Shown here: in pieces, positions 21,453-25,143 of the stretch | Numbering within the stretch: the stretch's first letter is position 1 | Layout of the letters: each line of letters begins with the position of its first letter | NCBI RefSeq assembly: GCF_001669775.1 | Contig: NZ_LXWK01000011.1 | Span: 806,001 to 870,000, forward strand | DNA length: 64,000 bases | Direction of reading: 5' to 3' | Source of the DNA: Rheinheimera sp. SA_1 | Lineage (GTDB): Bacteria > Pseudomonadota > Gammaproteobacteria > Enterobacterales > Alteromonadaceae | Translations under genes and position numbers: made by a program | The notes under the pieces: generated by a model | The model's input: the letters and a program-made list of their open reading frames with translations, nothing else | Told to the model about the DNA's origin: nothing | Databases searched by the model: none

Positions 21453-22664
21453 GTGCAGCAATCAGGCAGCGAAGTAAATACCTTGTATATTCTAAGATTT
21501 TTGATGTTATTTGCTGGCTTTACCGCAGCAGTTGAAGCACAGACGTTACCGGCGAAAGTGGCAATTATTATCGATGATATTGGCTATCAAAAAGCTGATC
21601 CACTACTTATTCAACTGCCTTACGCGCTGACTTTCGCCGTGATGCCCTTTGCGCCACAAAGCCAGCAAATGGCTGAACTTGCTGCCCGTCAGCAAAAAGA
21701 AGTGATGCTGCATATGCCGATGGAAGCGGTGGCGCAAAACCATTTGCTGGGAAAAGGTGCATTGCGCCGTCAAATGTCCAAAACCCAGGTGCAGCAAGCG
21801 CTGCATCAGGCACTGGCGCAAGTACCTCAGGCTATTGGCGTTAACAATCATATGGGAAGTTTATATACCAGTTTGCCCCAGCAGATGGATTGGACCATGC
21901 AAGTGATGGCCGAACGGGGTTTGTACTTCATTGACAGCAAAACCACGGCTCGTAGCGCCGTATCGCGCGCCACTAGTGCACATCAGATTAAAAGCCGCAG
22001 TCGCGATATTTTCCTCGATAACGATAAATCACATGCCGCGCTGGATAAACAATTTAACCAACTGATTAAACTGGCGAAACAACAAGGCAGTGCTGTTGCC
22101 ATCGGCCATCCTTATCCGGAAACTTACCGCTACTTAAAGCGCAATCTGGCGCGGTTGGCCGCATCGGGTGTTGAGCTGGTGCCAGCATCACAATTGTTAG
22201 ATTTACCACAAGTGGCGCTGGCTGCTGCACCGGCAACCTCAACACAAGTGGGATCTATTGCTAAATCAAATTCAAGCCGCGCCGCCAACGAAACCGACTG
22301 GACTGAGAAAGCCCGCAGCGACGGTAAAAAAGTGCTGAAGTTGTCGCCGCAACCGGACAAAACCACTCAGACGGGTGAAGCCGGATCCGGCTCGGTGAGT
22401 CTGGTGCATAACACCTCTGCACAACCTGCGACAACAAACACAATCACAATCACAGCCGCCAATCCAAACCCGGGGACAGAGCTGGCAGCGGCAGCAGTGG
22501 CTGAACCTTTACAATGGCATCCGCCTTACCGCGCGGATTTACCCGGTTTTGTCATCCCGGCCGTGGTGATGGCAGCTGACTGGCAACTGTGGTTTGAAGA
22601 TCTGCGGGCTGTCGCTCCAAGCAACGTTCCGGCAGCCACGACACCTTTGCTATTAATGCGCTAA
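21453..22664 (+). CDS. yibQ: Divergent polysaccharide deacetylase YibQ with C-terminal extension
   Basis: This secreted protein of up to 403 residues belongs to the DUF610/YibQ family of divergent polysaccharide deacetylases. It has a signal peptide (ending AAVEA-QT), VAIIIDDIGYQ, LTFAVMPFAP, the MLHMPMEA motif, GVNNHMGS and AIGHPYPET. The deacetylase fold ends near residue 250. A low-complexity Ser/Thr/Ala-rich tail of about 150 residues, unlike E. coli YibQ, follows and ends in a conserved-looking short segment. The start is uncertain: GTG at 21453, or TTG at 21483 directly before the hydrophobic segment. It follows envC by about 100 bases. Confidence 0.88.
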   Translation: MQQSGSEVNTLYILRFLMLFAGFTAAVEAQTLPAKVAIIIDDIGYQKADPLLIQLPYALTFAVMPFAPQSQQMAELAARQQKEVMLHMPMEAVAQNHLLGKGALRRQMSKTQVQQALHQALAQVPQAIGVNNHMGSLYTSLPQQMDWTMQVMAERGLYFIDSKTTARSAVSRATSAHQIKSRSRDIFLDNDKSHAALDKQFNQLIKLAKQQGSAVAIGHPYPETYRYLKRNLARLAASGVELVPASQLLDLPQVALAAAPATSTQVGSIAKSNSSRAANETDWTEKARSDGKKVLKLSPQPDKTTQTGEAGSGSVSLVHNTSAQPATTNTITITAANPNPGTELAAAAVAEPLQWHPPYRADLPGFVIPAVVMAADWQLWFEDLRAVAPSNVPAATTPLLLMR

Positions 22665-22760
22665 GTGAAGGACTGTAAAACTGCTGATTGGTACAGGCCA
22701 GCGTTGCTACTGAAAAAAATGCTTCAACTTAAATGTCGACAGTCCAGGTAAAAAAGGCAC

Positions 22761-22787
22761 AAAAAAGGCAGCTTACGCTGCCTTTTT
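22761..22787. terminator. Bidirectional terminator between yibQ and rpoH
   Basis: A GGCAGC/GCTGCC stem with TTAC loop is flanked by A6 and T5, so it can terminate both converging units. Confidence 0.9.
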
Positions 22788-22811
22788 CTTATGGAATGAA
22801 TTACTTAGCTG

Positions 22812-23666
22812 TTAAGCATCAACCATCGCTGCATGCAGCTTTTTCATGGCATTTTTTTCCAGCTGACGCACCCGCTCTGCTGACACTGAATAACGGTCGG
22901 CCAATTCCTGCAAGGTCAGTTTCTGATGATCTAACCAACGGGCACGAATAATATCCTGACTCCGTTCATCCAAAGTCCGCACCGCAGCTTGTAGCCGGTC
23001 TACGGCAGCGCCTTCAGATTGGTCTTCTTCAAAATTGCTGGCTAAGTCGGATGATTTATCCTGCAGATAAAATACCGGTGCATGGATAGCGCCTTCATCA
23101 TCATCATCTTGCGCGTCAAATGGCATATCGTGATTGCTCATCCGCGATTCCATTTCCCGCACTTCGTATTCCGGAACCCCTAAAGATTCAGCAACGTTTT
23201 TCACTTCTTCCTGGCTGAACCAGCCTAAGTTTTTCTTGGCTTTACGCAGATTAAAGAACAATTTACGTTGCGCCTTGGTGGTCGCCACTTTCACAATGCG
23301 CCAGTTTTTCAGGACAAATTCATGAATTTCAGCTTTGATCCAGTGCACAGCAAACGACACCAAACGGACACCGACTGTCGGGTCAAAACGTTTGACCGCT
23401 TTCATCAGGCCGATATTGCCTTCCTGCACTAAATCGCCAATCGGTAAACCGTAACCGGAATAACTGCGGGCGATATGCACCACAAACCGTAAATGCGACA
23501 TGATTAATTGACGGGCAGCTTCCAGGTCACCATGTTGTTGTAACCGCTCAGCTAAAGCGCGTTCTTCGTCAGCAGACAACATCTGAATAGTACTCACCGC
23601 ATGGGTATAAGCCTCGAGGCTTCCGCTGGCGGCGACAGACATGGTCATAAGGGATGCTTTAGTCAT
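22812..23666 (-). CDS. rpoH: Heat-shock sigma factor RpoH (sigma-32)
   Basis: It directs RNA polymerase to heat-shock promoters. The 284-residue product has region 2 ([35 protein letters not shown]), the RpoH-specific box [12 protein letters not shown], and region 4.2 ([21 protein letters not shown]). The ATG at 23666 follows AGGAG. The leader carries a perfect CIRCE element 35 bases upstream of the start, an unusual feature for this gene. ftsX-ftsE-ftsY is nearby on the same strand but separated by the EAL-HDOD gene on the other strand; in E. coli rpoH directly follows ftsX. Confidence 0.98.
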
Positions 23667-23701
23667 TTACATAGCTCCTGCTTTTCTCAACTGGAATCAT
23701 C

Positions 23702-23728
23702 TTAGCACTCTTCGACTGAGAGTGCTAA
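23702..23728. promoter_or_regulatory. Perfect CIRCE element (HrcA operator) in the rpoH leader
   Basis: TTAGCACTC-N9-GAGTGCTAA matches the CIRCE consensus at all 18 positions with the canonical nine-base spacer. HrcA repressor binds such sites in front of groESL and dnaK in many bacteria. Here it lies 35 bases upstream of the rpoH ATG and about 30 bases downstream of a plausible -10 box, so bound repressor would block rpoH transcription. hrcA is not in the window. Confidence 0.9.
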
Positions 23729-23758
23729 CCAAAGTTCCGCTGCTTTTAAGACCCTAAT

Positions 23759-23788
23759 CTTATAAACAGATTTTTTTCAGAATATCAA
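23759..23788 (-). promoter_or_regulatory. Probable sigma-70 promoter of rpoH
   Basis: On the minus strand TTGATA (23783-23788) and TATAAG (23759-23764) are separated by 18 bases. Transcription would begin around 23750 and read through the CIRCE element into rpoH. Confidence 0.6.
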
Positions 23789-23919
23789 AGCATATAGTGG
23801 AAGCGCTTTTTTACGATATGCTCAAAGAAGAATAACAACAGCTGCAATGTGGTAATTGTCCCCAAAGTCGCTATATCGCTGCGTTCCAGCCCTTTCCGAT
23901 CTGTACCAGGAGTAGTCAT

Positions 23920-25143
23920 ATGTATTGTTACATGGCTAGGCAACCGATCCTTGATGCCGAAAAAAACCTTTACGGGTACGAACTGTTGTTTCGGGACGGT
24001 GTAGCCAACTGTTTTCCGAACATTAACGCCGACGAGGCAACCTCAAAGCTCATTACTGAACATCATTTATTAATGGGAGTAGAAAAAATTACCGGCAGCC
24101 GCAAGGCTTTTATTAATTTCTCAGCAGATACCTTAATTCACCATTTCCCCACTTCGATTGATCCAAAAAGCATGGTGATAGAAATTCTGGAAACCGTGCC
24201 AATCAGCCGCGAGTTATTAACGGCCTGTCGCGAGTTACACCGGATGGGTTATCAGTTGGCGCTGGATGATCACGATTTTGAACCGAAGTGGGATATCTTC
24301 CTGCCGTATGTCAGCATCATCAAAGTTGATGTGCAGCAATTTAATATGCTGCAAATCAGCAAATACATTTCCCGCATCAAGCACCACCCGGTCACTTTGT
24401 TGGCCGAAAAAGTAGAAACCGCCGCTGAATATCAAAAACTGAAACAACTCGGATTTAGTTTATTTCAGGGTTACTTTTTTGCGCGGCCGGAAATGCTAAA
24501 ACACAAAAAAATCGCCAGTAGTAAGCTTAACCTGCTTCTACTGATTGCCGAATCGAGCAAAGTGGAACTGGATTTTGACCAGCTGTCCGCCATTGTCGAA
24601 CGTGATTTAGGTTTGTCTTATAAGTTACTGCGATTTGTGAACAGCTCCAGCTTTGCTCGCGAAAAGCCGATTGGCTCGTTAAAACACGCCATGGTGTATA
24701 TGGGCGAAGCCGAGCTGAAAAAGTTTATTGCCTTGCTGGCACTGGCAAACCTGAGTGAAGACAACGGCAGCGAATTACTGAATATGTCGATGGTGCGGGC
24801 GCGGTTCTGCGATTTAATGGCACAAATGAACCATGACCCAGAAAATCCGCCTTCGGCATTTTTAACCGGCTTATTTTCATTAGTGGATGCGTTGCTGGAA
24901 CAACCGCTGGCCGATTTGCTGGAAGACTTACCAATATTACCGGAAATTAAAACGGCATTGGTCGCGCATCAGGGCAAGCTGGGGCAATATCTGGAACTTG
25001 CCAAAGCCTTTGAACAAGCCGACTGGGAATTACAACAACAACTGAGTCAGAAATTGTTTGGCAAAACGATTGATTTAAGCCCGCATTATATACAGGCGGT
25101 CGATTGGGCGCATGGGTTGTTATTGACGGCTCGCAGCGAATAA
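23920..25143 (+). CDS. EAL-HDOD signalling protein (YuxH/CdgJ type)
   Basis: This 407-residue cytoplasmic protein starts with the family signature MARQPILDAEKNLYGYELLFRDG. It has an EAL-fold domain (about 1-205: YELLFR, LALDDHDF, FQGYFFARP) and a HDOD domain (about 210-400: DLGLSYKLLRFVNSSSF, PIGSLKHAMVYMGEAELKKF). Family members regulate motility and biofilm in Vibrio and relatives. Activity on cyclic di-GMP varies; ELL and DD are present here, but other catalytic residues cannot be judged by eye. The ATG follows AGGAG. It is divergent from rpoH. Confidence 0.88.
   Translation: MYCYMARQPILDAEKNLYGYELLFRDGVANCFPNINADEATSKLITEHHLLMGVEKITGSRKAFINFSADTLIHHFPTSIDPKSMVIEILETVPISRELLTACRELHRMGYQLALDDHDFEPKWDIFLPYVSIIKVDVQQFNMLQISKYISRIKHHPVTLLAEKVETAAEYQKLKQLGFSLFQGYFFARPEMLKHKKIASSKLNLLLLIAESSKVELDFDQLSAIVERDLGLSYKLLRFVNSSSFAREKPIGSLKHAMVYMGEAELKKFIALLALANLSEDNGSELLNMSMVRARFCDLMAQMNHDPENPPSAFLTGLFSLVDALLEQPLADLLEDLPILPEIKTALVAHQGKLGQYLELAKAFEQADWELQQQLSQKLFGKTIDLSPHYIQAVDWAHGLLLTARSE

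Follow-up and report, generated by a model that had tools for sequence, protein, structure and literature searches.

A perfect CIRCE element in front of rpoH points to probable HrcA control of the heat-shock sigma factor in Rheinheimera sp. SA_1

The heat-shock sigma factor gene rpoH of Rheinheimera sp. SA_1 is preceded by a perfect CIRCE inverted repeat that is very probably a functional operator of the repressor HrcA and part of a repression circuit as a whole. Accounts of heat-shock control usually offer a choice between an HrcA repressor and a sigma-32 activator. If our reading is true, HrcA and sigma-32 would belong to one circuit, with chaperonin load (via HrcA) and envelope stress (via sigma-E, in this group) acting on a single piece of DNA. 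Two features are notable in SA_1: rpoH is apparently the sole HrcA target, and the operator has a sigma-E-like promoter built into it. The features of the locus are collected in Table 1, where the window is the whole stretch of DNA that was analysed.

Table 1. Sequence features around rpoH of Rheinheimera sp. SA_1, in positions of the window (64,000 nt)
Feature	Position	Strand	Remarks
CIRCE operator, proposed HrcA site	23702..23728	.	TTAGCACTC-N9-GAGTGCTAA; 18/18 positions
rpoH, heat-shock sigma factor sigma-32, 284 aa	22812..23666	-	TIGR02392 407.4 bits, NF005143 430.4 bits
Probable ribosome-binding site of rpoH, AGGAGC	23674..23679	-	read from sequence
Terminator-like hairpin 3' of rpoH	22761..22788	-	12 pairs, then T run
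Sigma-E-like -35, GGAACTT	23732..23738	-	12/13 jointly with -10
Sigma-E-like -10, GTCGAA, entirely within CIRCE spacer	23711..23716	-	15 nt from -35
Possible distal sigma-70 -35, TTGATA	23783..23788	-	read from sequence
Possible distal sigma-70 -10, TATAAG, 18 nt from -35	23759..23764	-	read from sequence

The perfect repeat claimed in the first-pass annotation of this DNA was recovered by a pattern scan of the window, with all 18 positions of the consensus matched, and it is the sole match at up to three mismatches both in the window and in the 5.16-Mb genome. Shuffled windows gave a mean of 0.05 matches at the same threshold, with at least one match in 4 of 100 shuffles. Because the CIRCE pattern read backwards, used as the control for the genome scan, also gives one match at up to three mismatches, the weight rests on the perfect match and not on the three-mismatch threshold. 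A chance origin of the repeat was considered and is ruled out by the shuffles, the genome scan and the genus search. The position in front of rpoH holds as well: the downstream gene fits curated RpoH models (the TIGR02392 score compares with a cut-off of 323.1 bits), and its ATG lies 35 nt from the repeat, which places CIRCE close to the start of a heat-shock gene.

Two candidate promoters lie at or upstream of the repeat. The sigma-E consensus reads GGAACTT-N15-GTCAAA/GTCTGA and was scored out of 13, with two -10 positions accepting two bases each; the score of the sigma-E-like promoter at rpoH was equalled in none of 200 mononucleotide shuffles. The spacer that holds its -10 consists of the bases left free by the CIRCE consensus, and rpoE is present in the genome. 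The plausible sigma-70 promoter that had been placed upstream of CIRCE stands only in part: a promoter scan of 22600-24100 found none at threshold (shuffles give 2.0), whereas the pair TTGATA-18-TATAAG, read by eye, scores 10/12 and has counterparts (TTGATA, 16-19 nt, then TATAAG, TATACA or TATTCA) in 18 of the 22 genus loci. As a match, the sigma-E-like promoter overlapping CIRCE is better than the distal sigma-70-like one. Between the distal promoter and CIRCE, the motif TCTTAAAA at 23744-23751 (minus strand) recurs in all 22 genus loci amid variable surroundings.

In the proposed circuit, HrcA would be kept active in unstressed cells by the GroE chaperonin, an effect known from other bacteria, and would bind CIRCE and block RNA polymerase. 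A transcript from the sigma-E-like promoter would start in the far arm of the operator and, because the -10 lies in the operator spacer and the start in the far arm, HrcA binding would cover this promoter, while the distal sigma-70 promoter, if used, would meet an HrcA roadblock. Heat or unfolded proteins would occupy GroE and leave HrcA inactive, whereupon rpoH would be transcribed and sigma-32 would drive the chaperone genes. An alternative is that the repeat functions chiefly as a hairpin in the leader RNA of rpoH, affecting mRNA stability or translation, and not as a DNA operator. As RNA it forms a stable hairpin (-12.7 kcal/mol), which transcripts starting at the distal promoter would include; those from the sigma-E-like promoter, however, would lack most of it. 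We consider the hairpin role very unlikely, as both arms are identical in 22/22 genus genomes with no compensating drift and the presence of the repeat follows hrcA in the family. The symmetric C7/G12 exchange in one tandem CIRCE copy (genome G138) is as compatible with RNA as with a DNA dimer. With an RNA thermometer like that of Escherichia coli in mind, 38 nt of leader were folded once together with 230 nt of coding sequence for SA_1 and for Klebsiella oxytoca, and pairing round the start appears in both, which does not separate the two.

Conservation before rpoH, which the first-pass annotation had proposed to look for in relatives, was found throughout the genus and follows hrcA across the family. 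All 22 genus genomes searched carry a perfect CIRCE, located 34-37 nt 5' of rpoH, and all carry hrcA; in one of them this gene is divided between the ends of two contigs. Arm sequences are 100% invariant in these loci, and the ungapped flanks show majority-base identities of 61% (95 bases before) and 69% (30 after); the remaining CIRCE matches in the genus have three mismatches each and are scattered. The intergenic region is shared with a divergent EAL-type gene at 23920-25143 (plus strand), which lies between ftsX and rpoH and gives weak matches below curated cut-offs. Since this gene is present in 21 of the 22 genus loci, CIRCE might mainly control it, with the nearness to rpoH being incidental, yet we find this scarcely credible. 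Elsewhere in the family the gene was recovered from just 6 of 21 loci, and the 100 class and order loci (with short flanks, and some of them not at rpoH) had none, while CIRCE stays at rpoH, and the repeat lies 191 nt from its start versus 35 nt from rpoH. The EAL-type neighbour was rejected as the CIRCE target on this patchy occurrence.

The sigma-E overlap has a much narrower distribution than the operator. The offset test covered rpoH loci with a perfect CIRCE, namely 22 of the genus, 10 of the sister group, 9 of Pseudoalteromonas type, 10 from elsewhere in the family and 25 from the class and order, with locus L018 of the family and those class and order sites that were imperfect left out. 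At this offset, which was chosen after being seen in this group and is compared over related loci, a sigma-E-like score of at least 10/13 is reached in 20/22 genus and 8/10 near-sister loci (two in each group fall below), and in none of the 44 others (0/9 Pseudoalteromonas-type, 0/10 other family, 0/25 class and order). The sigma-E-like -35 is looser than the -10, since the exact GGAACTT is found in 7 of the 22 genus loci. CIRCE spacers that read as a sigma-E -10 at 5/6 or better make up 10 of the 16 distinct ones in the genus and sister group, compared with 2/8 of Pseudoalteromonas type, 0/10 in the other family loci, 2/55 class and order rpoH sites, 0/37 at groES and 1.4% among random spacers. 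The scan also recovers a positive control, GGAACTT-15-GTCTGA (13/13), in front of rpoH in K. oxytoca and Kosakonia; among the named RpoH loci it took 32 of the best 80 of at least 592. By these comparisons, the putative sigma-E overlap is confined to the own genus and its near sisters.

The repressor that the proposal depends on is encoded in the genome, and its DNA-binding region is conserved. A genome lacking hrcA, one of the refuting conditions named in the first-pass annotation, is therefore not the case here. A profile search finds one hrcA (126.9 bits, where 22.2 is the cut-off), which adjoins grpE and is divergent from a nadK-like gene. Both HrcA domain models exceed their cut-offs (PF01628, C-terminal, 125.9 bits versus 22.2; PF03444, N-terminal winged helix, 25.4 versus 21), and the sole match among solved structures is 1STZ, a named HrcA homolog (E 3.8e-21). 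Compared with eight other HrcAs of the class, the genus proteins show 55% identity over residues 11-75 and 23% over the remainder, against 73% and 50% for the class proteins among themselves; in the most diverged genus of the family the values fall to 45% and 17%, with SATVRN and SPHTSAGR.PT kept. The DNA-reading half is thus retained and the remainder has drifted, a pattern that a continuing need to bind one perfect operator would produce, and with the effector half diverged, the GroE signal may have changed. In genus g19 (L055-L058), probably Pseudoalteromonas judging from named relatives, the HrcA model reaches only 33-37 bits and the CIRCE at rpoH is perfect.

Across the family, site and repressor are closely coupled. 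A CIRCE match with at most two mismatches was found in 32 of 147 genomes, in 26 of them (including G049) at rpoH, and every one of the 25 genomes in which hrcA passes the cut-off belongs to these 26. CIRCE at rpoH is thus present in 25/25 hrcA-bearing genomes versus 1/122 others (Fisher p 2e-27, kinship ignored), the one exception being G110 (95% complete), in which hrcA was not found. No CIRCE with up to two mismatches lies away from rpoH in the 25 hrcA-bearing genomes, and their second sites are only tandem copies at rpoH (G035, G049, G113). Such tandem copies before rpoH, 31-33 nt from start to start, occur in several genera (L014, L018, L060, L095-L101 and others). Matches away from rpoH are confined to six family genomes, none with hrcA over the cut-off: G002, G021, G044, G122 and G142, each with two mismatches, and G123 with none. 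In the five whose site was inspected (all but G021), no RpoH, GroES, GroEL, HrcA, GrpE, DnaK or NadK gene was found near it. The two-mismatch matches are taken as chance. The perfect CIRCE of G123 (L013:1501-1527) has ten-base arms, with hrcA not found and none of the seven query genes near; it may be a relic, a terminator-like hairpin or the site of another protein. Among the best 80 of at least 592 named RpoH loci, nine carry a perfect CIRCE (Alishewanella agri, Rheinheimera pleomorphica, five Pseudoalteromonas, one of two Catenovulum and one metagenome bin) and 71 have six or more mismatches, with none between. With hrcA present, the site in every genus genome and its distribution tracking hrcA in the family, the claim of HrcA control over rpoH is upheld as probable by comparison. 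The further claim that the whole sigma-32 regulon would thereby come under HrcA goes too far, as HrcA would be one input.

The operator could also be a relic that is kept by shared descent while HrcA no longer meaningfully represses rpoH. The strong divergence of HrcA outside the DNA-binding stretch in the family, down to 17% in one genus, would fit this, as would the absence of CIRCE sites at groESL and hrcA. In Xylella fastidiosa under nitrogen starvation, hrcA rises four-fold and rpoH two-fold, levels that show no repression (PMC3224663). The rise of both genes runs against simple HrcA repression of rpoH; Xylella is a gammaproteobacterium with hrcA, and the CIRCE status of its rpoH lies outside our comparison. 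Against a relic, perfect arms sit between variable flanks in 22/22 genus genomes, intermediate decay states are lacking among the best 80 of at least 592 named RpoH loci, the HrcA recognition region is conserved, and site and hrcA are absent together. These observations argue for present selection on CIRCE and make the relic very improbable.

Within the SA_1 genome, the scan finds no CIRCE at up to three mismatches at groESL, hrcA or dnaK, so that the companion sites at groESL and dnaK for which a search had been proposed did not appear; the best alignments upstream have 9 mismatches for groES and 8 for hrcA. As CIRCE is found at neither groESL nor hrcA, rpoH looks like the only HrcA target. 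The genome has one groEL and one dnaK over the cut-off. A weaker second DnaK-like protein is encoded at C17:261468-263201 (minus strand, L062), with 577 bits, below the DnaK cut-off.

The chaperone genes themselves carry matches to the sigma-32 consensus CTTGAA-N13-15-CCCCAT, given here as raw scores out of 12 without shuffle control. A sigma-32-like promoter precedes grpE at 11/12 or better in 23 of 25 family loci (12/12 in SA_1), and groES of SA_1 has CTTGGT-15-CCCCAT (10/12). Before hrcA the score is at least 10/12 in 13 of 25 family loci, perfect in four of them, and below 10/12 in the other 12, with 9/12 in SA_1 itself. This count is of the 25 family loci, to which the sub-threshold match L059 contributed none and L072 was added as a class locus for comparison; the start codons were script-chosen and are wrong in a few cases (L041, L042, L051, L052 and L054). 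From these promoter-like matches, grpE and groESL are probably transcribed by sigma-32, as is hrcA in many relatives. Through the apparent sigma-32 promoters of grpE and, in many relatives, of hrcA, sigma-32 would also restore HrcA and close a negative feedback loop; it is the matches before hrcA that suggest such feedback.

Beyond the family, the linkage of the two systems appears widespread. In a class draw of 274 genomes, 199 have a CIRCE with at most one mismatch and 199 have hrcA, two sets that overlap and are not identical: G240 has sites with hrcA not found, and G158 and G188 show the reverse. Any CIRCE site is rarer in the order draw (17 of 148 genomes). Sites were classified in 53 genomes taken from among the matches listed and not at random, 38 of the 199 with a match in the class draw and 15 of the 17 in the order draw, the other two being of the own genus; no query gene was in reach for L139 and L152 (contig ends), and one duplicate-looking G399 row was left out. 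Among the matches listed, CIRCE lies at rpoH in 46 of these 53 genomes, at groES in 44 and at hrcA in 8, and the site set is exactly groES plus rpoH in 33, rpoH alone in 7 and groES alone in 4. With 46/53 classified genomes among the matches listed having it, CIRCE at rpoH looks old and common in the class, so that the site, taken in the first-pass annotation to join two systems normally treated as separate, is no exception; these counts suggest that linkage of HrcA and sigma-32 is common there. A 2003 study by Permina and Gelfand of HrcA and sigma-32 regulons in beta, gamma and epsilon groups may already name rpoH as a gammaproteobacterial HrcA target, as may the RegPrecise database. In the own family the groESL CIRCE appears to have been lost, the class set (groESL and rpoH, sometimes hrcA) being reduced to rpoH alone. 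In 10 of 41 groES loci examined (L102 and L108-L116, order draw), CTTGAG spans the junction of the CIRCE spacer with its far arm and provides the -35 for a sigma-32-like promoter scoring 11/12, so that operator and promoter are fused.

A fuller reading, to which we give even chances, would have three parts. In the own family HrcA would be a dedicated one-target regulator of rpoH. In Rheinheimera and Alishewanella, rpoH would be a logic gate, where sigma-E fires only once HrcA leaves the operator that holds the -10 and sigma-32 makes HrcA. HrcA over sigma-32 would be the ancestral gammaproteobacterial wiring, with the Escherichia coli pattern without HrcA a derived loss. Should HrcA control rpoH across much of the class, as the comparison suggests, E. 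coli may have lost an upper layer of control.

Classical HrcA/CIRCE systems, in Bacillus subtilis and others, control groESL and dnaK. SA_1 shares with them the operator sequence and the repressor family, but the target here is an alternative sigma factor gene and not a set of chaperone genes, and the groESL site of the usual regulon is missing. The GroE titration signal, for which a review describes the effect of GroE on HrcA activity (PMC6032397), is probably shared as well. The closest precedent is Geobacter sulfurreducens, for which Rodionov et al. (2004; PMC545781) predict a perfect CIRCE shortly 5' of rpoH (at -51) in a genome with hrcA, both as in SA_1. SA_1 has the rpoH site alone and an overlapping sigma-E-like promoter; in Geobacter, groESL and hrcA-grpE-dnaK-dnaJ carry further CIRCE sites, and groESL is described there as the sole constant HrcA target in the delta group (PMC545781). 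In the literature searched, which included few subscription papers, CIRCE at rpoH was found in print only for Geobacter and not for gammaproteobacteria. Genomes with CIRCE at rpoH alone would allow the circuit to be tested free of interference from a groESL operator. In Agrobacterium tumefaciens, HrcA and RpoH occur in one cell, as here, and Nakahigashi et al. in 1999 reportedly described their roles in groE control as 'differential and independent', whereas in SA_1 HrcA would act on rpoH itself. E. coli has a sigma-E-dependent rpoH promoter, rpoHp3, and in this respect resembles SA_1 with its sigma-E-like promoter before rpoH. K. oxytoca and Kosakonia likewise have their full-scoring sigma-E-like site before rpoH, without CIRCE, whereas in SA_1 the -10 of the sigma-E-like promoter sits inside the proposed repressor operator.
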